Source: a virus
Length of the DNA stretch: 48,406 nucleotides
Strand: one strand, 5' to 3'
IMG/VR virus record: IMGVR_UViG_3300001351_000010
Span: 1-48,406 of that record
This document shows positions 7,357 to 26,000 of the stretch, one piece after another. Below the pieces are notes generated by a model that searched no databases, had not been told where the DNA came from, and worked only from the letters and a program-made list of their open reading frames with translations. Position numbers and translations under genes: made by a program. The stretch's first letter is position 1; each line of letters opens with the position of its first letter.

Positions 7357-7557
7357 ATGTTACCACAATTTAAAAAAGATTTTTTGGAAAAGATGAGTCA
7401 AGAAGAAATGATTAGTTTTAATGAAATATGGTTAAGAGTAATAAAACATGGTTTACAATTTGAAGTAACTTATACAGCATTAGAAGAAATGAAATCTAAT
7501 CCTGAATCATCTCCTCTCCTTTGTTTGCAGATTGCAGCAGAAGATTGGGATTGTTAA
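7357..7557 (+). CDS. small helical hypothetical protein
   Basis: A 66-residue acidic, mostly helical protein (begins MLPQFKKDFLEKMSQEEM). No family recognised. It has its own class A promoter. The -33 of the following promoter lies in its last codons. Confidence 0.55.
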   Translation: MLPQFKKDFLEKMSQEEMISFNEIWLRVIKHGLQFEVTYTALEEMKSNPESSPLLCLQIAAEDWDC

Positions 7558-7576
7558 AAAATTGTTCGTATATTTA
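7545..7576 (+). promoter_or_regulatory. class A promoter for the gene at 7600
   Basis: TTGG at 7545, inside the end of the previous gene, a spacer one base longer than usual (21 bp), then TTCG-TATATTTA with the -7 box at 7569-7576. Confidence 0.55.
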
Positions 7577-7798: not shown

Positions 7799-7887
7799 GC
7801 CGCTGTGGTGGAATTGGTAGACACGACAGACTTAAAATCTGTTGAGCCGAATGGCTCGTGGCGGTTCGAGTCCGCCCAGCGGTACCA
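7799..7887 (+). tRNA. tRNA-Leu (anticodon UAA)
   Basis: The acceptor stem GCCGCTG/CAGCGGT is followed by discriminator A and an encoded CCA. The anticodon arm ACAGA-CTTAAAA-TCTGT gives anticodon TAA. A long variable arm (GAGCC/GGCTC) is as expected for Leu, and the T arm is GGCGG-TTCGAGT-CCGCC. TTA is visibly the main Leu codon of the phage genes, so the tRNA fits the codon usage. Confidence 0.95.
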
Positions 7888-7918: not shown

Positions 7919-7995
7919 GGACTCGTAGCTCAGCTGGATAGAGCAATACCCTTCTAAGGTATCGGTCGTAGGTTCGAATCCTACCGGGTTCACCA
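7919..7995 (+). tRNA. tRNA-Arg (anticodon UCU)
   Basis: The acceptor stem GGACTCG/CGGGTTC (two wobble pairs) is followed by discriminator A and an encoded CCA. D arm GCTC/GAGC; anticodon arm ATACC-CTTCTAA-GGTAT giving TCT; T arm GTAGG-TTCGAAT-CCTAC. It reads AGA, visibly the preferred Arg codon in the phage genes. Confidence 0.95.
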
Positions 7996-7998
7996 CAT

Positions 7999-8077
7999 AG
8001 GCATGTATCTCCTCAAGCTTATACCTTGTAGAAAGAGTAATTGGTTACATGAGAGTTCAAGTCTCTCCTTGCCTACC
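7999..8077 (+). ncRNA. degenerate tRNA-like element
   Basis: A perfect T arm GAGAG-TTCAAGT-CTCTC (8051-8067) and an acceptor-like stem AGGCATG/CTTGCCT (7999-8005 with 8068-8074, one mismatch) end in ACC without the final A. Between them lie a hairpin CAAG-CTTATAC-CTTG (8014-8028), whose 7-nt loop would present anticodon UAU (Ile), and a second hairpin GTAA-TTGG-TTAC (8037-8048). No normal D arm fits. It may be a tRNA remnant or an unusual tRNA. Confidence 0.45.
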
Positions 8078-8142: not shown

Positions 8143-9126
8143 ATGTATAAATTTCTTCTTTCCCTTGCGGTTATATTACTGCCCTTATCGTTATTTTCCC
8201 AATCTCCAGATGCCATAATAGGTGATGTAGAAATTGAAACTGGGTGTATTGGTGATACACCTTTTTATAACATAAATTATGTTGTATGGAATTTTGGTGA
8301 TGAAGAAATTACAGACTATTGTATTGAAATTTGGAATGAAGATTATTATCAATGTTTTAGTAGTGATTTATTTGGGGCTTATGCAATTCCTCCTGGGGAA
8401 GGGCAATTCTTTACTACTCCTTATTTTGAAATGGAAGGGCCTGGTAGTATTTTTGTAATGTCTGTTGATGGTATTTTAAATGAAATCGTTACTGGAAATA
8501 ATAATACAACTGTATTCTTACCTGAAATACCTGAGTGTCCTGTTGATTGTTTAAACGATACAATTACTATAACTTTACCACCAGATACTATTATACAAAC
8601 GCAAATTGACACCGTTATAACGCAAGAATACGTGTATTTAACCGATACAATTGTGGAATACATAGCAGATACTGTAGTTGTAGACAATTACATATATACA
8701 GTAGATACTTTGGAAGTTGAAGTTTTAGAGTATGTTTTTTTAACAGATACTATCACAAAAATTATTGAAGTAGATTGTAATACTGGTTTGCCCTGTAGTG
8801 AATTAATTATTGATGGGTGCTGGCCTTGGAATGTTTTTATACCTAATGTACTAACCCCAAATAATGATGGTATAAATGATGTTTGGGAAATTATTTTTGA
8901 TTTAGAGTGTTGGGTTGATGTAGAATTTAAGATTTACAATAGATGGGGAAGTTTAGTTTTTGAAGGTTACGGAGAAGATTATAGCAGTTATCCTTATTGG
9001 GATGGTAGTATGCAAGGTGGATCCTCTTATGTGGTTGATGGAATATATGTTTATACTTTCTATGCTAGAAAATATAATTCCCCAGAAATATATCAAAAAT
9101 CTGGGCATCTTACAATATTAAGGTAA
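8143..9126 (+). CDS. secreted protein with T9SS type B sorting domain (gliding-motility CTD family)
   Basis: A 327-residue protein. Residues 1-20 are a classical signal peptide (MYKFLL, hydrophobic core, ending LFSQ before SPD). Residues about 25-125 resemble a CARDB-like beta-sandwich (NYVVWNFGDEEITDYCIEIW). Residues about 140-215 form a repetitive Thr/Val/Asp linker with recurring DTI and DTV units. From residue 232 the sequence has the hallmarks of the CHU_C/TIGR04131-type C-terminal domain: FIPNVLTPNNDGINDVW, FKIYNRWGSLVFEG, WDGSMQGG and GIYVYTFYARK. In Bacteroidetes this domain directs export through the type IX secretion system and attachment to the cell surface. In a phage it would put a phage product on the surface of the infected host, perhaps for superinfection exclusion. 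It sits beside the tRNA genes, a usual cargo position. Confidence 0.85.
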   Translation: MYKFLLSLAVILLPLSLFSQSPDAIIGDVEIETGCIGDTPFYNINYVVWNFGDEEITDYCIEIWNEDYYQCFSSDLFGAYAIPPGEGQFFTTPYFEMEGPGSIFVMSVDGILNEIVTGNNNTTVFLPEIPECPVDCLNDTITITLPPDTIIQTQIDTVITQEYVYLTDTIVEYIADTVVVDNYIYTVDTLEVEVLEYVFLTDTITKIIEVDCNTGLPCSELIIDGCWPWNVFIPNVLTPNNDGINDVWEIIFDLECWVDVEFKIYNRWGSLVFEGYGEDYSSYPYWDGSMQGGSSYVVDGIYVYTFYARKYNSPEIYQKSGHLTILR

Positions 9127-9133
9127 AAATTAC

Positions 9134-9164
9134 TTGGATTGCTAGTATTTATACCATATATTAT
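9134..9164 (+). promoter_or_regulatory. class A promoter for the gene at 9191
   Basis: TTGG at 9134, 20-bp spacer, -7 box TATATTAT at 9157-9164. The spacer also holds TATTTATA (9146-9153), close to the class B motif. Confidence 0.55.
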
Positions 9165-9190
9165 GACTTTAATACTATAAAATTTTTAAA

Positions 9191-9379
9191 ATGAGCCATT
9201 ACGAAGACGCACTTTATGAAGTTTATGAAACAGTACAAAGAGAAGGATTAAAAGAAAAGTTTGACATACAAACTAAAAAAATGCAATCTCAAGATAAACA
9301 TAAAAATAAAACTGTGGTTGAAAAGTGGGAGTATGCTTTATATAGGATAAGAGGTGGTAATAGTAAAGATCGTTACTAA
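9191..9379 (+). CDS. small charged hypothetical protein
   Basis: A 62-residue hydrophilic protein, mostly helical at its N-terminus (HYEDALYEVYETVQREGLKE) and basic at the C-terminus. Two nt separate it from the next gene, with which it probably forms an operon under the promoter at 9134. No family recognised. Confidence 0.55.
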   Translation: MSHYEDALYEVYETVQREGLKEKFDIQTKKMQSQDKHKNKTVVEKWEYALYRIRGGNSKDRY

Positions 9380-9381
9380 GT

Positions 9382-9816
9382 ATGAAAAAAATGGATTTTG
9401 ATAATATATTTAACCTATTTGGTGAAGAAGATGTAAGTAATAATACTACTACTTATACTAATTTAACCTCAACTCCCCTATATTGGTTAGGTATGCATAC
9501 AAAACTTATCCTTAATCATATAAATTTTAGGAAAAAAGCAATACGATTGTTAAAAAATTCAAATATGGAGTTAGATCCTGCAGAATTAGCAGCTGCCGGT
9601 GAAGTAATTGCTTATAATAGAGCTTGGTTTTATATTAAAAAAATAGATCTTAGTAATAAAGATCATGTTGAGGCTATATTGGCACATGGTGATGATTTTT
9701 TGGAAACTTCTTTAGAATTAGCCATCAAACATTTCCAATCCCCAGAAAGAGAAGAGTATGAAAAATGTCTTCATCTTTTAGAAGTTCTTAAACTATCAAA
9801 AGAATTACGACTTTAA
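9382..9816 (+). CDS. hypothetical helical protein
   Basis: A 144-residue, predominantly helical acidic protein with a Ser/Thr/Asn-rich patch at residues 18-32. Second gene of the 9191 operon. Nothing in it resembles a family I recognise. A 147-nt gap follows, containing the next class A promoter and no gene. Confidence 0.6.
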   Translation: MKKMDFDNIFNLFGEEDVSNNTTTYTNLTSTPLYWLGMHTKLILNHINFRKKAIRLLKNSNMELDPAELAAAGEVIAYNRAWFYIKKIDLSNKDHVEAILAHGDDFLETSLELAIKHFQSPEREEYEKCLHLLEVLKLSKELRL

Positions 9817-9906
9817 GTAGGATACCAGAGAAATTTTGGGTACCTTGGAAATACGGGTTTTGAAGATATTTAGGAAAATGAAAGAATAGGAAATGAGGAG
9901 TATAGG

Positions 9907-9937
9907 TTGGATGAATGAGGGGGTTATTGTATATTAT
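9907..9937 (+). promoter_or_regulatory. class A promoter for the operon starting at 9964
   Basis: TTGG at 9907, 20-bp spacer, -7 box TATATTAT at 9930-9937. It lies in the only sizeable gap of this part. It probably serves the genes from 9964 to the sigma-like gene ending at 12068. Confidence 0.55.
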
Positions 9938-9963
9938 AGACACATTAATAAAATAAAAATAAT

Positions 9964-10161
9964 ATGGCATTTAGAAACAAAGAATTGGTTGACAAAGGGT
10001 TTGTAAATATTAAATCCGGAGTTAAAACATTAGATCTAATGGTATCCCGTGGAGGAAGCGACATTGATACTTTTAGAAAAAAAATAAAAGAGGTTTATGA
10101 TAAAATTGAAGAGGTAGAATCTTTAGTTGAACGCGAAGCCGGAGTTCTAAGAAACGGATAA
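9964..10161 (+). CDS. small helical hypothetical protein
   Basis: A 65-residue protein with a C-terminal amphipathic helix of coiled-coil type (FRKKIKEVYDKIEEVESLV). First gene after the promoter at 9907. No family recognised. Confidence 0.55.
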   Translation: MAFRNKELVDKGFVNIKSGVKTLDLMVSRGGSDIDTFRKKIKEVYDKIEEVESLVEREAGVLRNG

Positions 10162-10177
10162 TACAAAAATAAAAGTT

Positions 10178-10951
10178 ATGAAATTAACAGCAGACCAAAT
10201 TCAAATGAATTGGGTGGAATTTTTGAGTAATATTGATACTTATATTTCCTCTCCTCGTAAAGAACAACTAACTAAATTTTATGAAAAGTATGCGGAACGT
10301 ATTATGTTTATGCCTGCTGCTCATAAAAAAGAATATCACTCTGCCTTTCCTGGAGGTTATGTAGATCATGTTAATAGAGTAGTTAAAGCTGCTTTATCAA
10401 TGTCTGCTGTTTGGGAAGGTTTTGGTTGTGATATGACTACTTTTACTACTGAAGAATTAGTATTCTCAGCTATTAATCATGATTTAGGTAAAATGGGGGA
10501 TGATAACCATGAAGCTTATATCCCACAAACTGATAAATGGAGAAAAGATAAACTAGGTGAAGATTATATGTTTAATAAAGAATTAGCATTTTCAGCTGTC
10601 CCAGATAGAGGATTATTTTTACTTCAAGATAATAACATTAAATATACATTTAATGAAATGGTAGCAATCCAAACACATGATGGGTTATATGATTCAGCTA
10701 ATGAAAAATATTTAAAGGGTTATATGCCAGAACAAAAACCACGCACTTCATTACCATTTATTTTACATCAAGCAGATATGATGGCAGCTAGAATTGAATT
10801 TGAAATTGAATGGTTGCCTAAATTTAAAAATAACTTGGATACCAGTAAAAATAATTTTACATTGGGTAATAATAAGAAAACCTCTACAAAAAATAAAGCC
10901 TTAGGCTCTATTAAAAGTGAAGGTTTACAAAACATTTTTGATAAACTATAA
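10178..10951 (+). CDS. HD-domain metal-dependent phosphohydrolase
   Basis: A 257-residue protein with the HD-superfamily motif series: GGYVDHVNRVV with His64, NHDLGKMGD with His101-Asp102, IQTHDG with His167, and ILHQADMMAARIE with Asp200. These residues bind one or two divalent metals. Relatives hydrolyse nucleotides or act as 3'-5' exoribonucleases; the substrate here is unknown. The leader AATAAAAGTTATG resembles that of the class A genes. It lies 2 nt before a small membrane gene and upstream of the sigma-like gene, so it is probably in the same operon. Confidence 0.85.
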   Translation: MKLTADQIQMNWVEFLSNIDTYISSPRKEQLTKFYEKYAERIMFMPAAHKKEYHSAFPGGYVDHVNRVVKAALSMSAVWEGFGCDMTTFTTEELVFSAINHDLGKMGDDNHEAYIPQTDKWRKDKLGEDYMFNKELAFSAVPDRGLFLLQDNNIKYTFNEMVAIQTHDGLYDSANEKYLKGYMPEQKPRTSLPFILHQADMMAARIEFEIEWLPKFKNNLDTSKNNFTLGNNKKTSTKNKALGSIKSEGLQNIFDKL

Positions 10952-10953
10952 AT

Positions 10954-11247
10954 ATGGAAATTTATCCAACTACATTATTTGTAACAATTGCAATTTTAAG
11001 CATTTTAGTTTTAGTCTTAGGATATACAACTTTTAATTTACTTAAGAAAAATGAAAGAGCAGAAGATATAGTATTAGGATATCTTGATTATTTAGATAAA
11101 ATATCCAGGGTAATAGAAGTTGCCGATGAAAAGGTAAAAAAAATTGATGTAAAAGGATCTTTTGAGTCAGATGATGAGGTAGGTTTTTTCTTTAAGCAAA
11201 TTAAACAAATTCAAGAAATTCTAAATGATTTCCAATTAAAAGAATAA
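10954..11247 (+). CDS. small membrane protein, N-terminal anchor
   Basis: A 97-residue protein. Residues 7-29 form one transmembrane helix (LFVTIAILSILVLVLGYTTF), followed by a charged, probably coiled-coil cytoplasmic part. Separated by 2 nt from the HD-domain gene and 8 nt from the sigma-like gene. Function unknown. Confidence 0.65.
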   Translation: MEIYPTTLFVTIAILSILVLVLGYTTFNLLKKNERAEDIVLGYLDYLDKISRVIEVADEKVKKIDVKGSFESDDEVGFFFKQIKQIQEILNDFQLKE

Positions 11248-11255
11248 AATAGCAG

Positions 11256-12068
11256 ATGGATGAAATAATAAGGAGGCATAAATCATTACCTCAGAAAAAA
11301 GTATATTTTTCAAAAGTGACAGAAGCAGCGATTGTAAGATACAATCGCTCCTCTGATCCCGAAGAGCGAAGTGATATATATGCCGAACATATACATTGGG
11401 GTTTTTATAAACTTACAGAAAATATCATCCATACTTTTAAGTTTTATCATACTGATGGGGTAGAAAATTTAGAAGATTTACAACATGAGATAATTACCTT
11501 TTTATTATCTAAAATACATCTATTTAATCCTGAAAATGGAGCTAAAGCCTATTCATATTTTGGAACTATAGTTAAACGTTGGTTAATAGTATACAACCAA
11601 AAAAATTACGGTAAAAAAATAAAAAATATAGCAATTTCAGATTTAAATCACTACTCACAATTAGATACATCAGATCCTTCATTTATTATATCACAAAATA
11701 GATTAGATGATACTCAAGTTTTAGTTGAAGATGAAGAATTTAGTAGTAGAAATTTAAAAGAAAATAAAGACTATAAATATGAAGATCGTTTATCTTTATT
11801 TATAGACCAATATGTAAAATATTGTACTGATAGAATTTATGTTTTATTTCCTAAAGGTAATGATGCTACTATAGCTGATGCCATTTTAGAATTATTTAGA
11901 AAAAGAGATGCCATTGATGTATTTAATAAAAAGGCACTTTATATCTACATTCGTGAGATGGTAGATGTTAAAACTCCAAAAATAACTAAAATAGCTAATA
12001 AATTATATGCTATATTTAAAGAAAAGTATATGTTTTATTTAGAACATGGCTACTTTCCACCAAAATAG
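11256..12068 (+). CDS. putative phage late sigma factor (gp55/sigma-70 region 2-like)
   Basis: A 270-residue protein. Residues about 40-125 resemble sigma region 2 and T4 gp55: a helix containing DLQHEIITFLLSKIHLFNPENG, then KAYSYFGTIVKRWLIVYNQK, comparable to the [20 protein letters not shown] segment I recall from gp55. Phage late sigma factors redirect the host RNA polymerase to late promoters. The gene ends just before the first structural operon and a TATTTATAA motif at 12082, where such a factor would be expected to act. The C-terminal half (about 180-270) is helical and not recognised. Moderate confidence; a remote homology search is needed. Confidence 0.6.
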   Translation: MDEIIRRHKSLPQKKVYFSKVTEAAIVRYNRSSDPEERSDIYAEHIHWGFYKLTENIIHTFKFYHTDGVENLEDLQHEIITFLLSKIHLFNPENGAKAYSYFGTIVKRWLIVYNQKNYGKKIKNIAISDLNHYSQLDTSDPSFIISQNRLDDTQVLVEDEEFSSRNLKENKDYKYEDRLSLFIDQYVKYCTDRIYVLFPKGNDATIADAILELFRKRDAIDVFNKKALYIYIREMVDVKTPKITKIANKLYAIFKEKYMFYLEHGYFPPK

Positions 12069-12081
12069 TTTTAATAATGCA

Positions 12082-12090
12082 TATTTATAA
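12082..12090 (+). promoter_or_regulatory. class B (late-type) promoter motif
   Basis: TATTTATAA 11 nt before the ATG at 12102, at the head of the tail/baseplate operon. The short distance would give a very short leader or a leaderless message. Confidence 0.5.
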
Positions 12091-12101
12091 TCAAAAACAT
12101 T

Positions 12102-12440
12102 ATGGGACAGTTAGATTCATACGTTTTTGGGGATAAAAAATTTTCTGATTTATTAGAAGAAATCTACCAAAACCAAAAAAAGAGAGATACTCAAGTAGTA
12201 GCTTTAATATCAGAATTAAAACCTTTAGTTCAAGAAATAGGTGATGCTACTCTTATAGTTCCTCTTATTAAAGAATATATGGAAATTGGAGTTAAAAATG
12301 ATGATGCTCTAATTAAAATGGCTACTATTGTTCAAAGAGCGCTTCAAAACCAAGATGAAGATGGTGGATTAGGAATTAGTGAAGAAGAAAAAGAACAATT
12401 ATTAGCTGAGATGGAAAAAATTTCAAAAGAAAATAAATAA
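12102..12440 (+). CDS. hypothetical late protein heading the tail operon
   Basis: A 112-residue acidic, almost entirely helical protein with a Glu/Lys-rich C-terminal coiled-coil-like helix (EEEKEQLLAEMEKI). It is the first gene of the tail/baseplate operon, and its stop overlaps the start of the spike gene (TAATG). It may be a tail assembly chaperone or minor virion protein, but nothing specific supports either. Confidence 0.6.
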   Translation: MGQLDSYVFGDKKFSDLLEEIYQNQKKRDTQVVALISELKPLVQEIGDATLIVPLIKEYMEIGVKNDDALIKMATIVQRALQNQDEDGGLGISEEEKEQLLAEMEKISKENK

Positions 12441-13672
12441 TGGCTCAACAACCTACAGGATTAAATTCACTTAAGGGCACACCATCAGTTAAACCTCAAA
12501 ATTCTGGGGTATTTGCAGCTAGGGTAAGACATGCTATGGTGGACGAACAAACTGAAAACAAAGCATTTAAAGATTTTGGCAATTGGAGTTCTATAGGTTG
12601 TTTATTTTTTGATAAATTAAATACCCCAAACCCCAGCCCCCAATTTACAACTGATAACTTTGCAAGACCTTTATTTCCTAATAATTCTAATATACCTTTA
12701 AAAAACGAAATAGTTTACATAATATCATTACCAAACAGTAATGTTCAAGGTGATGTTAATGACCAAACATATTATTACTTTCAGGCAATAAATATTTGGA
12801 ATAGCACACATCATAATGCTATCCCAGATCCTATTAATGGGGAATCAACACCCGCAGCACAATCTCAAGATTACGAACAAACAACTGCTGGTTCAATTAG
12901 AAGAGTTTCTGATGGTAGTACTGAAATTGATTTAGGTAAAGATTTTAAAGAAAAACTATCTATAAGAAATCTTCAACCCTATGAAGGTGATTTAATATAT
13001 CAAGGAAGATGGGGACAATCTCTTAGATTTGGTTCAACTAATAAAGATGCAACAATCCCCAATACATGGTCTAAATCAGGAGAAAACGGTGATGCTATTA
13101 CAATAATAAAAAATGGACAACATGAAGAAGATAGTGACCCTTGGATTCCACAAGTAGAAGACATAAACACAGATAAATCTAGTATTTATTTAACAACTAC
13201 TCAAGAAGTACCAATTGATTTAGCTAGTAAAAGTTATAAATCATATGCTTCATCACCAACAGCAGCTCCTATTTTTAAAGAAGAACAAGTAATTTTAAAT
13301 TCAGGTAGATTATTATTTAATTCAAAATCAGATTCTATTTTACTTTCATCTTTTGATACTATAAATCTAAACTCAGTAAATAGTGTAAATATAGATACCC
13401 CAAAAACCATAGTATCATCTCCTGAAATTTATTTAGGTGATAAGGGTGCTACTGAACCCATAATATTAGGTGATAAGTTTCTTTCAGATTTTTCATCATT
13501 AATGACATCATTAATATCATTATGTAGTGCATTAGGAACACCAATTGGTACACCAATTCCTTTTGTCCCTAACGCAGCTATCCCAGCTCCTGCTACACAA
13601 ACACTTGTTAAAGCACAAACAATGCTTAATAAAATTCAAATGTATAAATCTAAAGTAAGTAAATCTAAATAA
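12440..13672 (+). CDS. baseplate central spike-like protein (gp5/VgrG type)
   Basis: A 410-residue protein. The middle contains an OB-like segment (YEGDLIYQGRWGQSLRFGS). Residues about 284-347 are short alternating strands (ILNSGRLLFNSKSDSILLSS, NLNSVNSVNIDT, SPEIYLGD) like the intertwined beta-helix of T4 gp5 C-terminus and VgrG spikes. The spike is the membrane-piercing tip at the centre of a contractile baseplate. No lysozyme domain is seen, unlike T4 gp5. It lies upstream of gp25 and gp6 homologues. Confidence 0.7.
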   Translation: MAQQPTGLNSLKGTPSVKPQNSGVFAARVRHAMVDEQTENKAFKDFGNWSSIGCLFFDKLNTPNPSPQFTTDNFARPLFPNNSNIPLKNEIVYIISLPNSNVQGDVNDQTYYYFQAINIWNSTHHNAIPDPINGESTPAAQSQDYEQTTAGSIRRVSDGSTEIDLGKDFKEKLSIRNLQPYEGDLIYQGRWGQSLRFGSTNKDATIPNTWSKSGENGDAITIIKNGQHEEDSDPWIPQVEDINTDKSSIYLTTTQEVPIDLASKSYKSYASSPTAAPIFKEEQVILNSGRLLFNSKSDSILLSSFDTINLNSVNSVNIDTPKTIVSSPEIYLGDKGATEPIILGDKFLSDFSSLMTSLISLCSALGTPIGTPIPFVPNAAIPAPATQTLVKAQTMLNKIQMYKSKVSKSK

Positions 13673-15324
13673 TGTCGTTTCTATCTAGCCTTCTAATAAA
13701 AACAATTACAAAAGTAATTAAAAACTTAACTAAGTTTGAAGTTGCTATTGATGCTCTTATAGATAGATTTAAGGCATCCTGCCCCCCAAAAGCAGAATTA
13801 CTAAATATAGTAAAACAAAAAAACCAAATACAGGGAGCTCTTGAAAATGTTGTTGGTGCTTTTAATACTGTAGAAGCTACAGCTGAAACTACCAATACTA
13901 TAGTTACTACGGTAAGTACAGCCGTTAAGGTAATAAAAGCCATCCCTATACCAACATCAGTCCCACCAGGTGTTGGTATTCCTATAAATGTTATTACACT
14001 TCTAGCAGATTCTTTAGATACTTTAGGTGATTTATTAAAAGGAGCTAAAGGTGCTCTTAAAGTAGTACCATCTGCCGGTAAAACTATACAAGAAGCTGCT
14101 CAAACTATAGTTACAAAATTACAAACTTTAGATGGTGTGTTAAATGTTTGCATTGAAGAATTAGCACAAAATGGGGGTGAAGATGGTGGGCCTATGACTC
14201 AACAAGAAGTAAATGATTTAATTAATGAAATAGGAAATGTAGCAGCTGAATCCGGAAATTTTGTAAACCCAAACCTAAATACTGCCAATGAAGATGATTT
14301 ATTATCACAACTAAGCCCTAATAGTGGTAATCCTCTTTTATATCAAAGACAACCTACAATTTTTATTCCATTAGACCCTGATGGTAACTACACAAAGGGT
14401 GAAATAGACCCAGGATCTGGCCAGCAAATAATTAAAGATGAAAGTGGTAGATTTGGATATAATGCTGGGTTTGATTGGAGATTAACTATAGAATATAATG
14501 ATGATAATGAATATTCATTCCCACAAAGAAGAGTAAAAGCAACAAACATAAATCCTTCTAATTTTAATATATTTAAAGGAATTAATGTTTATAATATAGG
14601 ACCACCAATTGGTACTATGGAAGAACGAGGAGCATATTCATATAGTACATCAGTTAAAGTATTAATAGATGAAGTTAAATTTAATGTTGATTCACTTAAT
14701 GTTAGATATTGGCAAAATAAATGGGTTCTTGATAATATGGAAGAAGCTGATGATGATGATAGAATAGATGGTGATGGAAATGTAAGTGGTGGGGGTACAG
14801 ATGGAAATACAACAGCACCTGGGGGTACAAACCCTCCACCACTACCCCCAGTTACTGTATTACTACCTAATGGTGTAACTATGTCTGATTTAGATATTAC
14901 TTTACCTATTGTACAAAATGGGTCTGGTACTTATTATAAACAAATATTTGTTGAAACCACACAACCTAATAAATCTGTTTATTTAAAAATAGACACAGGA
15001 GGTAATGAAGTTCAAAATCAATACGTTCAAGGAGACTATGGCCAGCCTGAATATGGTAGTTATTTACAAGGTGAAGTTAAGGTAAGAATTGATTCAAATT
15101 TTAATAACGCCGGTAGTGGTGAAGATGGAAATGTAGTAACAGTGAAAACCGTAGATCGAGAAGCTATAGAAGTTAAAATTCAATATGCTGAACCCGGGCA
15201 ATATTTACTTAAATACACAGTTGTATTTAAAGATTATGATCCACCTGGGTTTACAAAAGAAATCCAATCTAATCAGGGGGGAATAATTTCTCTATCAACT
15301 GGAAGTTTCTTTGAAGGAGATTAA
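13672..15324 (+). CDS. putative virion structural protein
   Basis: A 550-residue protein. The first 170 residues are helical and Ala/Val/Thr-rich, with KVIKAIPIPTSVPPGVGIPI in the middle. The centre has an Asp/Gly-rich linker around residues 360-390 (DDDDRIDGDGNVSGGG, then Pro-rich). The C-terminal part is beta-rich. It starts in TAATG overlap with the spike gene and is followed by gp25, so it is probably a baseplate or tail component. No family recognised. Confidence 0.6.
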   Translation: MSFLSSLLIKTITKVIKNLTKFEVAIDALIDRFKASCPPKAELLNIVKQKNQIQGALENVVGAFNTVEATAETTNTIVTTVSTAVKVIKAIPIPTSVPPGVGIPINVITLLADSLDTLGDLLKGAKGALKVVPSAGKTIQEAAQTIVTKLQTLDGVLNVCIEELAQNGGEDGGPMTQQEVNDLINEIGNVAAESGNFVNPNLNTANEDDLLSQLSPNSGNPLLYQRQPTIFIPLDPDGNYTKGEIDPGSGQQIIKDESGRFGYNAGFDWRLTIEYNDDNEYSFPQRRVKATNINPSNFNIFKGINVYNIGPPIGTMEERGAYSYSTSVKVLIDEVKFNVDSLNVRYWQNKWVLDNMEEADDDDRIDGDGNVSGGGTDGNTTAPGGTNPPPLPPVTVLLPNGVTMSDLDITLPIVQNGSGTYYKQIFVETTQPNKSVYLKIDTGGNEVQNQYVQGDYGQPEYGSYLQGEVKVRIDSNFNNAGSGEDGNVVTVKTVDREAIEVKIQYAEPGQYLLKYTVVFKDYDPPGFTKEIQSNQGGIISLSTGSFFEGD

Positions 15325-15341
15325 AAAATTTAATAATTTAA

Positions 15342-15350
15342 TATTTATAA
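15342..15350 (+). promoter_or_regulatory. class B (late-type) promoter motif
   Basis: TATTTATAA only 6 nt before the ATG at 15357. If this is a -10-type element, the message would be essentially leaderless. Confidence 0.4.
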
Positions 15351-15356
15351 TAAAAA

Positions 15357-15701
15357 ATGAAGTCATCACAATTAAAAACTCTAATTAAAGAATCAGTAAA
15401 AGAAGCAATTCAAGAAGAATTGAAGGAAATTTTACTGGAAGCTGTTAAGACTCCAAAAGTTACAACTATAGCATCAGTACCTCATCAAACTGTTGTAGAG
15501 CAACAAACTCCACAACAACCTGTTATGAGTGCGGAAGAAAAAAGATCAGCATATTCAAATATATTAGGTGATATGAGCGGACAATTTACATCAGCTCAAG
15601 TACAACCTAAATTTAACCCACAAGGCGGAGATGCAATTAATGGATCATTACCCCCAGGTGAAGTTGATATGGCACAAATATCAGGATTGTTAAAAAAATA
15701 A
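15357..15701 (+). CDS. putative virion protein with targeting-like N-terminus
   Basis: A 114-residue protein. Residues 1-30 are a strong amphipathic helix (KSSQLKTLIKESVKEAIQEE) ending ILLE-AV, which fits a T4-type prohead-protease site (L/I-x-E before A/G). The rest is Gln/Pro-rich and probably disordered. It sits between structural genes in the tail operon. The N-terminus resembles those of genes in the 33-46 kb cluster, such as the one at 39289. Confidence 0.55.
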   Translation: MKSSQLKTLIKESVKEAIQEELKEILLEAVKTPKVTTIASVPHQTVVEQQTPQQPVMSAEEKRSAYSNILGDMSGQFTSAQVQPKFNPQGGDAINGSLPPGEVDMAQISGLLKK

Positions 15702-15705
15702 ATAA

Positions 15706-16113
15706 ATGGCAAGAATTTTACAAAACAGATTTCCAATTGACTCAGTAGGCCGTAAAGCTGTTGGGTTTGGATTTCCCTTAAATGGGCCTGCTGTTTTTGT
15801 ACCTACATTTACAACTAGAGAGCAAACAAAATCCAATTTAATCAATTATTTATTAACCAATAGAGGAGAAAGAGTATTTAATCCTATGTTTGGGGCAGAT
15901 TTAAGAAATTTATTATTTGAAAATGTTTTAGATCGAACAACCGACGAATTACAAGAACGAATACAAAATGATATTAAAAATTATTTCCCACAAGTAGATA
16001 TAAAAGAAATTCTATTTGATAATCAACCTGATAGAAATACTATAAGTTTTACATTAACATATACTGTAGCAAACTTTGGGATAACTGATGACATAACTAT
16101 ATTACTACAATAA
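15706..16113 (+). CDS. 25: baseplate wedge subunit, gp25-like
   Basis: A 135-residue protein of the GPW/gp25 family: REQTKSNLINYLLTNRGERVFNPMFG followed by LRNLLFENV, then the conserved C-terminal strands. It matches the family in length. gp25 is a core wedge component of contractile baseplates and works with gp6 and gp53 in T4. Its TAATG overlap with the gp6 gene reproduces the order seen in many contractile systems. Confidence 0.92.
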   Translation: MARILQNRFPIDSVGRKAVGFGFPLNGPAVFVPTFTTREQTKSNLINYLLTNRGERVFNPMFGADLRNLLFENVLDRTTDELQERIQNDIKNYFPQVDIKEILFDNQPDRNTISFTLTYTVANFGITDDITILLQ

Positions 16114-17975
16114 TGGCAGATTTAAAACGAGACATAAGATATATTAATAAAGATTTCAACCAATTTAGAAATTCTTTAATACAATATTCAAAAACATATT
16201 TCCCTAATACCTATAATGATTTTACAGATACCTCTACAGGTATGTTGTTTATGGAAATGGCATCTTATGTAGGTGATGTGTTATCTTTTTATTTAGATAA
16301 CCAAATACAAGAAACATTTATTCAAAAAGCAAGACAGCAGGAAAATTTATACCAAATGGCTTACTTATTAGGATATACTCCTAAAGTAACAACAGCAGCT
16401 AGTGTAAATCTTGACTTTTACCAACAAGTACCAGCTATATTAGAAAGTGGTGAATATGTTCCAGATTACAACTATGCCATGATTATTCCAGAAAATACTC
16501 AAATTACTTCTAATTTAGACAGTAATATAAAGTTTTTAATTGAAGATGTAATTGACTTCTCAGCATCAGGATCATTAAATCCTACAACTACATCAGTATA
16601 TCAAATTTCAGGTAATAACCCAACATATTTCTTATTAAAGAAAACAAGAAAAGCAATATCTGCAACTATTAATACAACATCATTTACATTTAATGCCTCA
16701 AAAAGATTTGATGAAAGAAATATTAAAGATACTAATATTATAGGCATATTAGACTGCGTAGATACAGATGGCAATACCTGGTATGAAGTGCCCAATATGG
16801 CGCAAGAAAACGTATATGATACGATTAGAAACACAAATACAAATGACCCACAATTCAATATAGAAGAAGATGCTCCATATTTACTTAGATTAAAACAAGT
16901 GCAAAGAAGATTTGTATCACGTTTTATAGACTCAGGGTCATTACAAATTCAATTTGGAGCGGGGGCAACAACAAATAATGATGAGCAAATAGTTCCAAAC
17001 CCAGATAATGTAGGTTTAGGATTGTCATTTGAAAGAGATCAATTAACAACTGCTTTTTCACCTTTAAATTTTATATTTACAAATACTTATGGTATTGCTC
17101 CATATAATACAACTTTAAATTTTAGATATCTAACAGGAGGGGGAATTGGATCTAATGTTGAAGCTGGTACTTTAACTGTATTAGATGATACTAATTTTAC
17201 ATTTGTAAACCCCAACCTACCAGATACAGCATTAGCAAATCAAATATTTAAATCAGTTTCTTCAAATAATGAATTAGCAGCTGATGGGGGTCAAGATGGT
17301 GATACTGTTGAAGAATTAAGATTAAATGCTGTTGGTAACTTCCAAAATCAATTACGTACTGTAACAAAAGAAGATTATTTAATAAGAGCTTTATCTATGC
17401 CTTCTAATTTGGGTACTATAGCAAAAGCATATGCAGCCCCAGTAAAAATAAATGAATTTCAACCTGGTGAATTACCTACAATGTTAGATTTATTTGTTTT
17501 AACATATGATGCTAATGGTAATTTAAGAACAGCTTCACCTTTAATGAAACAAAATTTACAAACTTACTTAGCAGAGTATAGAATGATTAATGATTCTGTT
17601 AAAATTAAAGATGCTTTTATTATTAATATAGAAGTAATATTTGATATTATAGTATTACCTAATTTTAATAATAATGAAACTATTACTAAATGTATAACAT
17701 CATTAACTAATTTCTTTGCAGTAGATAATTGGCAGATTAATCAACCTATTTTACTTAATAATTTATATATTCTTTTAGATAAAGTAGAAGGAGTCCAAAC
17801 TGTAAAAAATATAACAGTAAATAATTTATCAGGAGTATCTTTGGGGTATAGTGATTATGCATATGACATCCCAGGAGCAACTGTAAATGATGTTGTGTAT
17901 CCTTCAATAGACCCAATGATATTTGAAATTAAATATCCTAATACTGACATTAAAGGTAGAGTAGTACCACTATAA
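16113..17975 (+). CDS. 6: baseplate wedge subunit, gp6/J-like
   Basis: A 620-residue protein. The N-terminus (YSKTYFPNTYNDFTDTSTGML, then FMEMASYVGDVLSFYLDNQ) is characteristic of T4 gp6/baseplate J proteins. Late motifs are RTVTKEDYLIRALSMP near residue 415 and a C-terminal beta-rich domain with IEVIFDIIVLPNFNN. gp6 dimers form the ring that links baseplate wedges and is rearranged on contraction. Its position directly after gp25 supports the call. Confidence 0.93.
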   Translation: MADLKRDIRYINKDFNQFRNSLIQYSKTYFPNTYNDFTDTSTGMLFMEMASYVGDVLSFYLDNQIQETFIQKARQQENLYQMAYLLGYTPKVTTAASVNLDFYQQVPAILESGEYVPDYNYAMIIPENTQITSNLDSNIKFLIEDVIDFSASGSLNPTTTSVYQISGNNPTYFLLKKTRKAISATINTTSFTFNASKRFDERNIKDTNIIGILDCVDTDGNTWYEVPNMAQENVYDTIRNTNTNDPQFNIEEDAPYLLRLKQVQRRFVSRFIDSGSLQIQFGAGATTNNDEQIVPNPDNVGLGLSFERDQLTTAFSPLNFIFTNTYGIAPYNTTLNFRYLTGGGIGSNVEAGTLTVLDDTNFTFVNPNLPDTALANQIFKSVSSNNELAADGGQDGDTVEELRLNAVGNFQNQLRTVTKEDYLIRALSMPSNLGTIAKAYAAPVKINEFQPGELPTMLDLFVLTYDANGNLRTASPLMKQNLQTYLAEYRMINDSVKIKDAFIINIEVIFDIIVLPNFNNNETITKCITSLTNFFAVDNWQINQPILLNNLYILLDKVEGVQTVKNITVNNLSGVSLGYSDYAYDIPGATVNDVVYPSIDPMIFEIKYPNTDIKGRVVPL

Positions 17976-20093: not shown

Positions 20094-23000
20094 ATGGAAT
20101 ATAAATTTGATGAATTAAAAGAAATGTCTAAAGCATTAGGTACAGATTATAAAAGCAATCTCGAAAGAGATGCTGTTGTAACTCCTATAACTAATGATAG
20201 GGAAAATAATATTAATATTAGCTCTTCCTGCATTCAAATACCAGCATCTACAGTTGTTAGTATGGGGTATGATTTTGCTGAATCTGAAATTATCCCAAGT
20301 GAAGACATATCAGGTTCATTTTTTCAAAGTGGGAGTATAATTGAATTTTATACTTATAGTACTACAAAAACCTTATTATCTCAAGATTATAACTTTACTG
20401 ATTATACAATTGAAGAGAATACAGCAATTGCTGATACTTCAGATGCAACTTCTTATACAAACAGTCAAGGTGTTGCTGTAGTTAATACAGGATCTGCTTC
20501 TATCCCAACAAATAATATTACATTACAACCTACATTAGATTTATACGATAGAGGATTTGATAATGGTGAGTTATTTGCTGTGTATAATTTTATTAATTAT
20601 GAATTAGCCTCATCAACAACTCAAACATTTTATATATCTGAAATATCAGGAGATAGAACAGAAATAAGAATAAAATCTAATGCAATATCTGCTGTAGATA
20701 TTAAAAATGGTTTTGCTTCATTAAAAGATAAATTAAACTCAACTGAATATTTTGATGAATTTTATTTAAGTTTTTATCAAAATAATTATGTAGTTGCTGT
20801 TAATATTGCATTAGAATCTACTCCTGAAAAGGCATTAGATCCTTCTATATTAATTAAATTATATGAACCATTACCTGCTAATTATAATGTTGAACAGAGA
20901 TTATATGTTGCAACTAAAGTAGGAGAAACAGTAGCCTATAAAGTAGAATTTATTCAAGATTTTTCAAATTTTATAGATAATGCAAATTACATTAAAGGTC
21001 CTAATGTTAATATTCCCCTTCAAGATTTAGTTAATAATTCAACAACTTTAAAATCTTATGAAGATTTAACAAAAACCGAATCATCATCATCATTAGATAG
21101 TGTTTTAAATTATTTAAACCAAACTGGGGTAACAATCACTCCTAACTACTCATACAACACGTTTGATGAATATATTAATTTTTCTTCAGCAAAACAGAGA
21201 ATTAATAATTTTTATGAAAAAGTATCTCAAATACAATCATACCAATCTGACATTGATACTATCACAACAATAACAGGATCAAATCCTAATGTAATAGAAA
21301 TATCTCAGAGTTTATCAAGTCTACAAACTAATATTACAAATTTAGTTTCAAATTTTGATGGGTATGAAAGTTATCTTTATTATAATTCATCATCTTTTGC
21401 ATATCCAAAAACTGGATCATCATATCCTTATTCCCTGTTACCAACAGGAAGTACAGAGGTATTAACATGGATGGGTAGTGATGTTGAAAATTCCCAATAC
21501 TATGGAGGTTATGTATTATCAGCATCTTTATATGATGAAGATAATCAAAACTGGTTGTATTATACTATACCAACTTTTATAACAGAAAATTCAGACAATA
21601 ATGAATATGTAGAATTTTCTAATATGGTGGGTCAATCTTTTGATGAAGTATGGTTATATACTAAAGCATTAAGTGAAAGATATAACACTACTAATGACCC
21701 AGAATCTGGATTGCCTTTAGATTTAGCTGCTGATGCTATAAAAGGTTTAGGATTTGAAACTTTTGGAAATAATTATGACAACCAAGATAATTTTATAGGG
21801 TTAACAGGTGAAGATAATGGGATTTATGTTCCACCAACAGGAAGTGAATTAATTACAGATTATGTAGCTGTAAATAATGGTAAAATAATAAATTACTGGA
21901 ATTTAGGGTATTCATGGCTTAATTATGTAGAACAACTAATAGAACCAGGATTCCCATATGCTATTGATAAAGTAAGTAAAGAAATATATAAACGTCTTTA
22001 CCACAATATGGCTTATCTTACTAAGAAAAAAGGTACAATTAGTGGTTTAAGACAATTAATTAATATTTGGGGTATTCCAAATACAATACTTCGAATTAAT
22101 GAATTTGGGGGTAAAAATAAGGACAACTCAGATGATTATGATTTATGGTATAAACGTTATAGTTACGCGTATACACCAGTTGCCAACCAATATATGGCAA
22201 GTTCGTCGGTTAAAGTACCTTGGATGCCATTACAACGTAATAAGATAGATAGTAATGAGTATATAGTACCTGATGGTCTTGCTTTTAGATTTAAAACTAC
22301 AGGACACCCATCATCAAGTTATGGAGGTAAATTTTATAGCCAATCTTTAGCCGTTAAAAAATCAAATGGAACTAATGATCAACAAATGGATTGGGGTATT
22401 GGTTTATTTTATGAAGACCAACCATCAGGATCATATTCTGGGTCTAGTTTTAGTGATTATTACAACTATGGTAAATTAAGATTTTATATGTCTGCCTCTC
22501 AACCCGATGGGGGAGTACAAATATCAGATGATATTGAATTACCATTTTTTGATGGAGGGTGGTGGAGTGTTTTACTACAAAGAGACCAACACGTAAGTGC
22601 TAGTACTAATGACACACCAACAACATATACTTTATTTGTAGCTAATAAGCAAGTAGATGGTTGGGATGGAAATTCATTAGGATGGTCAGGATCAGTAAGT
22701 ATGTCTTCAGCAAATATAGCTTTCAACTCAGGATATGGAGGAGGAACTTATGATAGTGTAGAATATGATTTACCAGAAGCTGTACATCCTACAATAAATG
22801 AATCTTGGAATAGTTTTGGAGTTACAGAATATGATGGTGTTTATGTTGGGGGGTATGTTTCAGGTTCAGATGTAATGACTGAAGTCTTAAATGAAGGAGC
22901 CAAAATATTTTCAGGATCTTTTCAAGAATTTAGATATTATTCTAACAATATTTCAAAAGAAGTATTTAATGATTTTGTAATGAATCCTGAATCCGTTGAA

Positions 23001-26000
23001 GGTAATAATGTTACAGGATCAGAATCATCATTTGATATTATTAACTTTAGAGCACCTTTAGGAAATGAATTAGAATATAAATTTACGGCATCCGTAAGTG
23101 AATCATTCTCAACTCTTATATCATCATCACACCCATCAATTACAGGATCAGCACCTATGGTGTTTACCCAATCTTTTATCAATCCTTCAAATTCTTCACT
23201 AACTTCAAGTTATGAATTTATTGGGTATGAAGCAGCATCTACCTACACTTATAGTAAACCTAACGTAGAAACATACTTTCTAGACCAACCAGCAATAGGA
23301 ATTAGAAATAGAATTTCAAATAAAATTCAAGTTGATGATGGTAGTGATTATGGTAATGTATTATCTAAATATAGAAGTATAGATCAAGACTATTTAATTA
23401 GCAAAAGTTATACTGAAGATATAACAAGTTTAGAAGTAGGATTTTCACCACAGGATGAAGTAAATGATGATATAATAGCAACTTATGGTTATGGTGTAAT
23501 ATCAGATGTATTAGCTGATCCTAGATTTGCTTATGAGGGTAAAGAAAACTATTACCCTAAATTAAGAAATATAGCAAATGAATATTTTAAAAAATATACA
23601 GAAGGTGATGTTTGGGATTATTTAAGATTAATTAAATATTTTGATAATTCATTATTTAAAGCAATTAAATCATACGTACCCGCTCGTACTAGTGTAACTA
23701 CAGGTGTTATAGTTAAACAACATATGTTGGAGCGTAATCGTCGTGTACCTATTACAGTTAATCCAAATACGATAATAGCATACACACCTGAAACAGGATC
23801 AATAGTAGGTGGTCAATCTACAGCTACAGGAATGAATAGTCCAATCTCATATAGAGATTTAGAACTTACAGGAAGTATTAAGATGGTTGATATTGGTGGA
23901 TCAACAGGAGGAGTTTTAAATCCTTACAATGTTGAAGTTACCCAATCTGGATTTTTCTCATATTTTTCGTCTAATACTCCTGGTAATTTACCAGACCAAT
24001 ATATTAATCTGATTCCTCAAGGTGGAAGTACAGCAACATATGGAGATATAGTATTATCTAGATTTGGAACTTCTTTAAAACAAGGTTTAAGATTAAAAAC
24101 CCCAATTAAAACAAGATTTCTTTTTAACCAAACTAATACTGTAGGTGAGTTAGGATTTGATGAAGGATTTGAATTTGCAGTATCATCATCTATAAGAGGA
24201 ATTATAGGTACTGATATAATAACTTCATCTTCATTGTCTCCTATTGGAGCTACAATTGCAAGTTCTTCATACTATGAAATGCTCCCAGGGGAAGATATTA
24301 CTTTCTGGTTTAAAGGTATGGATGTTAGTGATCCAAATAATCCTATACCTGCTTCTGTAACTATGGAAAACTTCCTTTGGTCGATGTATTCTGTAAACCA
24401 ACCAAACGCAAATGATTTTCAAGGTGCTGTTCTCCCATTTTCATCAAGTATATGGAATTCATTTACTACACAATCCTACATTATAGAAAATAAAACTATA
24501 TCTGGTAGTGTTTATGAATTACATAAATCACAAGATGAATTTTATAATGGAGAATTCAGTGGAAGTGAAATAACAGTAACAACTCAATCTTTACTAGTAA
24601 ATCCTTTTAGTGAGCCAAATACAATAAATACTACATATAACTTAATAGTTACTGCAAGTTTTGGTGCATATCAAAATAGTTCATGGAATACTACAGACCC
24701 ATTTCAAAACACATTCCCTTCAGGTACTTTTGATTTACAATCAACATCCTCATTTTATGACCCAACAAAAGAAGGACTTGGGTTAGAATCAGTTTATAAT
24801 TTATGGGCTGAGTGGGAAATAGATAATAGTTTTTCTACAAAAACGGGTTCTATATTTTATTATCAAGACCCAACTCAACCAGAAGATTGGTGGATTGTAG
24901 GGTTAATTTTACCCAGTCAAATGGACATCCCAGCAGGTTCTATTTCAAATAAATTTGGGAGTTATTTAGGTTGGTCTAGCCAAAATTTATCAAATGGTGA
25001 AGTTGTAGCTAGAAAAAATTCTAATGGTTCAGTCATAGAAGTACCCCAAGAATCAAATATAAATCCTATAAACCAAGTACCCCCAGAATACTCAGGCATT
25101 CCTGCTATCGAAGGTGGAGAGAATACACCAAACCAGTGGGGTCCTTATATAAAATTCCCAACTACATCGGGTTCAATGAATCAATTTTATGCCATAGGTT
25201 TAAATGTTGATTATGGTATTACAGACCCACAATATAATAATATGAAGTATGAGGAAATATTTTCTAATATGTTAGGAAATAATGATTCAGTACTTAAATA
25301 TTATAGCACGACAGGTATAATCAATACGGGTGACCCAGATGCCCCAACAATTACAACAACATCAGCAACATATGGAATAACTAAATATTGGTTTAAGGAT
25401 CCTTGGAATAATGGGGGTAGACCTATTAGACTTAATCAGCCAACATCTTTTGGACCATCCCCAGATATGTTTACGGAAACAGTCCGTGGCATAGAAGTTT
25501 ATCTTTCACCTGAAAGAATACAAAGAACTAAATTTGCCGACAATCAAAAAGATGGAACTCTTAATAATTATGGAATAGGATCAGCAAGTTTAGCATTGAT
25601 AGGATCCACATGGACAGGTTCATGGTATGATGGGTCAGGCTGGTTTCCAGAACAATTAACATTTAATAATGAAACTCAAGATCCAGATACAGGAGTAATT
25701 AATAATAATTTATCTACTTTTGCAAATGAACCATCATTTGAATTAAACCTTCCTAATTATATAGGTACACCAGCTCCTATAGATTCTTATGGAAAAGCAG
25801 GTAATGTCTTTATCCAATCTTTAAATGATTTAGAAGGTATTTCCTTTTTACAAGATTCAACAAGTCCGGGATGGACAGTATTTAATTATAACCCACAAAA
25901 TAGTAGATATTTAAGTGGTTCAGTTAACGGAAGTTTCCCACTTATACAATATAACCCATCAGGACCTCAAGATTCAGAGTATGTTAATTTTAACCCTCAA

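Follow-up and report, generated by a model that had tools for sequence, protein, structure and literature searches.

A cargo gene with a type B sorting domain and exchangeable front modules in probable T4-like marine phages

We analysed a stretch of 48,406 nucleotides from the IMG/VR virus record IMGVR_UViG_3300001351_000010 (hereafter the window) and identified, from its open reading frame and from matches to the PF13585 and TIGR04131 profiles, a gene for a cargo protein of the type IX secretion system (T9SS). The gene (8143–9126, + strand) starts with ATG and encodes 327 amino acids. Taken as a whole, the evidence makes it probable that this is an accessory "display" gene, whose product would be exported by the host T9SS and would present a swappable module to the outside.

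Architecture of the protein and its phage origin

The C-terminal domain (CTD; residues 226–327, 8818–9123, + strand) matched two sorting-signal profiles above their curated cut-offs, namely PF13585 (CHU_C, "Type IX secretion signal domain"; residues 232–324, E = 1.4e-16, 60.8 bits against a cut-off of 27) and the type B sorting domain TIGR04131 (residues 233–325, E = 7e-10, 38.9 bits, just over the cut-off of 35). Since both scores pass, the match is well beyond chance, and at residues 232–325 of 327 it reaches the C-terminus of the protein. The initial annotation, which had recognised a type B CTD from the letters and had proposed TIGR04131 and type B profiles as a check, is borne out by these scores. 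Five CTD motifs (A–E) are needed for secretion (PMC12618676), and the PF13585 and TIGR04131 matches cover the CTD domain. A PDB search with the CTD profile returned only the Aureispira grappling hook protein GhpA (E = 1e-6), a search of INPHARED yielded only two uncultured megaphages with 34–35% matches over the CTD, and PHROGs and PADLOC showed no match for the 327-aa protein.

At the other end of the protein, a heuristic (not SignalP) predicted a Sec signal peptide at residues 1–19 (8143–8199, + strand) with a cut before Gln-20, in keeping with the Q-rule of Bacteroidetes signal peptides (PMC5837995); the h-region has a Kyte-Doolittle 10-residue maximum of 3.15 and is followed by S-Q at 19/20. 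A small residue followed by Q is found at the predicted cut site in 26 of the 29 cargo family members, and among window ORFs of at least 50 aa the simple heuristic flagged Q-rule secretion in 8143–9126 only. Residues 132–225 (8536–8817, + strand) form a DT-rich repetitive linker with conserved Cys-132, Cys-136, Cys-212 and Cys-218, whose seven "DT" dipeptides were reached in 3 of 10,000 residue shuffles. The signal peptide (by heuristic only) and the repetitive linker had both been read in the initial annotation and both stand. Between them lies the passenger (residues 21–131, 8203–8535, + strand, with Cys-35, Cys-60 and Cys-71), delimited by alignment, AlphaFold and Foldseek, for which the motif VSVDGILNEIVTGNNNTTVFL and the AlphaFold model (pLDDT 77.8, pTM 0.71) indicate an Ig-like beta sandwich; the full-length model (pLDDT 52) was too poor apart from the CTD. 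This domain had previously been called CARDB-like, a name favoured by the Ig-like model and by weak Foldseek matches to the CARDB structures 3idu and 2kl6 (E = 4e-3 to 1.5e-2), whereas Pfam gave no CARDB match even at E <= 1; judged from the model, the label seems fair but not proven. Foldseek with the passenger domain alone returned no hit at E <= 1e-3, and no significant match came from a PDB sequence search with passenger profiles.

The virus record to which the window belongs measures 59.6 kb and has a terminase match at 51942–52556, and an identical 327-aa protein occurs on six other records (L002–L007) of up to 164 kb. The 164-kb relatives with the identical gene encode a T4-type gp23 (PF07068, E = 7.9e-76) together with a terminase, so that of the two T4-like marks the gp23-type capsid is found on these relatives and the terminase also on the record of the window itself. 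On the same grounds the earlier designation as a phage gene holds. A tyrosine integrase query, positive in 14 of 14 control genomes, had no match in 14 large viral records, which fits a virulent lifestyle. The carrier is probably a virulent, T4-like marine phage, and we infer its hosts to be Flavobacteriales-type bacteria (Bacteroidetes).

Comparison of the window with L008, L009, L010, L014 and L015 gave a dN/dS of 0.02–0.11 for the CTD and of 0.19–0.43 for the linker, and the CARDB region, where homologous (L008–L010), gave 0.16–0.26. Judged by these ratios, the CTD is under strong purifying selection. In a tree of 134 CTDs, 55 viral ones grouped together (98/79 support) with only three bacterial ones; the input comprised the best 80 bacterial CTDs among the matches listed and viral CTDs found with viral patterns, and because the query was viral and the bacterial set consisted of the best matches listed, this clustering is biased in its own favour. 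Two of the three bacterial CTDs (L118 and L130) belong to ordinary host genes, and the third (L092), which comes from a Flavobacteriales MAG, has a nested position close to the viral group.

These data bear on the reading that the gene stems from host contamination or was captured recently from a host and is not functional. CTD families are characteristic of host genomes, and the L092 CTD, the closest bacterial one among the matches listed, shares about 60% identity with the viral CTDs nearest to it. However, several independent viral records carry the identical gene together with gp23 or terminase, the gene is syntenic with phage genes and close to the phage in GC and GC3, and both the purifying selection and the viral CTD cluster speak against a dead or foreign copy. 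A search for the passenger modules in 42 genomes from the order of the L092 MAG (run with no bacterial positive control) found none, and no bacterial chromosome with the same gene and the same flanks was seen. Host contamination and a dead gene, which we consider hardly credible, were rejected on the gp23/terminase linkage, the synteny, the dN/dS values and the empty sites described below.

An accessory slot behind the tRNA genes

The gene follows two tRNA genes called by ARAGORN and by Rfam RF00005, tRNA-Leu (taa) at 7799–7887 (+ strand, 59.5 bits) and tRNA-Arg (tct) at 7919–7995 (+ strand, 67.7 bits). Directly behind them, at 7996–8077 (+ strand), we read from the sequence a tRNA-like element with acceptor- and T-arm-like halves, whose end forms the left border of the insert; it is possibly an unusual or decayed tRNA. 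A third genuine tRNA at this place was rejected, as neither ARAGORN nor Rfam called one. A 92-bp stretch overlapping the element is 100% identical in L014 and 93% identical in L044, and about 80 bp of it are 96% identical in L021 (8312–8391), a member of a distant phage group.

The conserved neighbour gene at 10178–10951 served as a marker to retrieve 80 viral loci, of which 61 had enough upstream sequence. A CTD gene was present at this locus in 8 of the 61, on 8 contigs; in the other loci inspected, the tRNA cluster or the upstream genes run on with no CTD gene. Empty-site relatives covering both borders (L183, L184, L192 and L197) align by blastn to position 8076 and resume at 9124–9129, and four more with the right border only (L175, L182, L186 and L207) resume at 9124–9126. 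These alignments define the inserted accessory segment as 8077 to about 9123 (+ strand), which runs from where the tRNA-like element ends as far as the gene's stop codon. As the gene is missing from most related phages, it is not essential. The position beside tRNA genes had been noted at the outset as usual for cargo, and the empty-site relatives demonstrate an accessory slot directly behind the tRNAs.

This position also weighs on the possibility that the CTD-like Ig fold is a particle decoration or fibre domain, i.e., a virion component and not a secretion signal. Ig-like domains are common on virions, and the structural genes begin about 3.5 kb downstream. Against this, the Q-rule signal peptide recurs in 26/29 members, the gene lies behind tRNAs and is missing in close relatives, no second copy of the CARDB module is present in the tail genes, and the profile matches are specifically to sorting-signal families. 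A virion protein, very unlikely in our view, was rejected on the signal peptide and the accessory position revealed by the empty sites.

The motif TTGGR-N15..17-CGTATATT has six matches in the window, all on the + strand (2586, 4231, 7308, 7545, 28269 and 47061), and none in 100 dinucleotide shuffles; by its sequence it likely marks a phage-specific promoter class, and the putative promoter nearest upstream of the tRNA/T9SS stretch is at 7545–7574 (+ strand). The sequence AACGTTATT occurs only twice in the window, once ahead of tRNA-Arg (7898) and once ahead of the T9SS gene (8110), and similar bases stand at the same place in L014 and L015, notwithstanding the module swap. Separately, 20094–28262, in a structural gene region, encodes a protein of 2722 aa in which residues 2095–2222 make up a HINT/intein-like domain (PT-HINT, E = 2e-6).

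Exchange of passenger modules between phages

Comparison with L014 revealed a natural swap breakpoint within the gene. Over 7986–8077, L014 and the window are 100% identical. L014 then shows no blastn match over its positions 93–1199, and matches again from window position 8583 (breakpoint 8578–8588, + strand), with L014 1200–9740 corresponding to 8583–17158 at 93.1% identity; both the promoter-proximal stretch and the entire N-terminal module therefore differ. Most neighbouring proteins near the locus are 99–100% identical in amino acids between the two, with one (9382–9816) at 95%. A second, independent pair has flanks that are 96–97% identical, and L013 7469–8494 is replaced there by L037 7043–7720, with breaks at the start codon and in the linker. 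By these alignments, the front module is swapped and the linker and CTD are kept in phages that are otherwise 93–97% identical.

Exchange also extends across more distant phages. The modules of L014 and L037 are 97% identical in amino acids, and, apart from a small companion gene, no further shared DNA was detectable between their loci. This gene encodes a Q-rule secreted protein of 120–121 aa with a dockerin-like DxDxDG segment at its C-terminal end, and it travels with the cargo gene on either side, upstream in L014 (149–511) and downstream in L037 (8314–8679), L044 (1675–2040) and L013 (9088–9453). The synonymous distance of the window gene to L009 and L010 (0.47–0.49) falls below the values for the neighbour genes compared (at least 0.82), which suggests that the gene moves between phages. 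The CARDB query matched in 11 of 14 viral records, where the module occurs only inside cargo proteins, and across the 14 phage records the passenger modules were not linked to a phage receptor or tail protein.

Passengers are varied in kind. In L021, whose record also carries gp23 and terminase, the passenger matches Pfam Peptidase_M43 (E = 1.9e-17), and the L021–L023 proteins align over the protease region; these viral contigs encode M43-type metalloproteases of 951–969 aa with a type B CTD (L021:89–2971, L022:2070–4979 and L023:1035–3890). Further family members have GCTDP..DGSC repeats or other modules as passengers, and most passengers have no enzyme signature. In one 169-kb phage, two type B CTD genes encoding 619 and 296 aa stand in tandem (L024:7299–10045).

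Proposed display on infected cells and relation to known systems

SprA was not found in the 5 viral records tested, while host-type MAGs have it; PorP/SprF was likewise not found in 21 viral records, and the one host-type MAG checked (G041) has 13 PorP/SprF matches. Phages lacking both would need those of the host. Type B CTDs need SprF-like shuttles, and one shuttle can serve several orphan CTDs (PMC12618676); since orphan type B cargo in Flavobacterium johnsoniae is served by one orphan shuttle, a cargo gene with no shuttle of its own is possible. Type B cargo is held at the surface by PorP-like proteins (PMC9143113).

We propose that the protein would be made during infection and exported by the host Sec system with removal of its Q-rule signal peptide. 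Its type B CTD would let the host T9SS translocon carry it over the outer membrane, and a host SprF/PorP-like shuttle, of which the phage encodes none, would pick it up. The protein would then stay anchored at the infected-cell surface, the N-terminal domain facing outward on the DT-rich stalk, and the phages would recombine this outward module while the stalk and CTD are retained. Judged from the CTD, the Q-rule signal peptide and known T9SS biology, export by the host T9SS and surface display appear likely. Given that the front part is swapped and the sorting label kept, infected cells probably wear a surface protein chosen by the virus.

In flavobacteria, resistance to phage has been mapped to gld/spr (T9SS) genes, which makes T9SS-made surfaces relevant to phage entry (PMC9233685). 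The same observation could serve a T9SS decoy, in which an active CTD would compete for host shuttles or SprA so that fewer host adhesins (phage receptors) are displayed, the passenger being irrelevant. The CTD is indeed the most conserved part of the protein, the phage without its own shuttle must draw on that of the host, and gld/spr mutants resist phage. However, the passenger is itself under purifying selection (dN/dS of 0.16–0.26) and is swapped between homologous or unrelated modules, including the metalloprotease in L021–L023, and passengers of 100–860 aa would be needless for a pure jam, which makes the decoy improbable in our view.

If the protein is displayed, its most likely purpose would be to alter the infected-cell surface against competing virions or re-adsorption, a plausible but unproven role that we put forward with reserve. 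Two points favour phage competition, namely that near-identical phages exchange the exposed part and keep the anchor, and that the T9SS-made surfaces of flavobacteria are where resistance to phage arises (PMC9233685). Altered adhesion or aggregation ranks next. Passenger swapping, the lack of an integrase, and gain and loss of the cargo gene may be what is expected of a protein for inter-phage competition, and adhesion, protease or other virocell roles fit them too.

The main rival, especially for the M43 variant, is accordingly that the displayed or released module alters aggregation, particle attachment or nutrient uptake with no effect on other phages. CARDB/Ig-like modules are common in adhesive surface proteins, and the M43 passenger of L021 occurs on a record with gp23 and terminase. 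Moreover, the T9SS cargo of Cryophage includes an endoglucanase and a glycoside hydrolase (PMC7468147). On the other side, an enzyme signature is missing from most passengers, the absence of integrase matches in 14 records would limit such effects to one lytic cycle, and the exchange of passengers among near-identical phages points to negative-frequency or arms-race selection; we regard this role as possible, though on the unlikely side. Returning to phage competition, T4-like marine phages could tentatively be seen as sharing mobile display cassettes, with a constant type B anchor of viral lineage and largely phage-specific modules exchanged within and between groups, often with a second small secreted protein, which would give infected cells a phage-type-specific surface in phage-phage competition, as tail-fibre modules are shuffled for host range.

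The closest known case is Cryophage, a 76-kb Bacteroidetes phage from cryoconite with three type A T9SS cargo genes; its cargo was called a unique occurrence, varies between variants, and was suggested to act in superinfection exclusion (Bellas et al. 2020, PMC7468147). The likeness lies in phage-encoded T9SS cargo that varies between near-identical phages. In Cryophage, however, type A domains are carried by endoglucanase, GH39 and PA14 proteins, and the phage has relatives in integrated elements, whereas here a type B CTD is joined to Ig-like and other passengers in T4-like phages with no integrase, and there is an intragenic module swap with a constant CTD, transfer between phage groups and a mapped empty site. 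Phage-encoded T9SS cargo and the superinfection idea were thus already published in 2020 (PMC7468147), and no other reports of phage T9SS cargo like this were found in the PMC open literature. New here are the type B CTDs, their presence in several T4-like marine phage groups, the empty site, the module swap on a constant anchor and the inter-group transfer.

Among bacterial systems, the type B cargo of F. johnsoniae (SprB, Fjoh_3952 and the orphans Fjoh_1123, 1720 and 4934, with SprF-like shuttles) likewise combines a Sec signal peptide with a type B CTD, and as with the orphans no shuttle gene lies beside the phage cargo gene; the present protein differs in being phage-encoded and much smaller than SprB (PMC12618676). 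The PorP-PG1035 pair of Porphyromonas gingivalis is similar in that a PorP-like protein is expected to hold type B cargo at the surface, but it is chromosomal, and such binding by the phage CTD is putative (PMC9143113). Q-rule proteins of P. gingivalis phages are comparable in their adaptation to the Bacteroidetes signal peptidase and in the suggested envelope modification, and the text of that paper does not mention T9SS or sorting domains (PMC10367356).

For lytic phages, the use of a host machine to secrete proteins through the outer membrane is seldom considered. If the proposed display is true, virulent Bacteroidetes phages would re-dress infected cells through the host T9SS, with a constant address label and interchangeable faces. 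Superinfection control could then readily be tested by genetic means in a major marine phylum, and the modules would form a natural library for display through the T9SS. With regard to type A signals, the 113-kb L019 phage record also carries a type A (PF18962) sorting domain (G014:84081–84275), in a protein of about 1176 aa.
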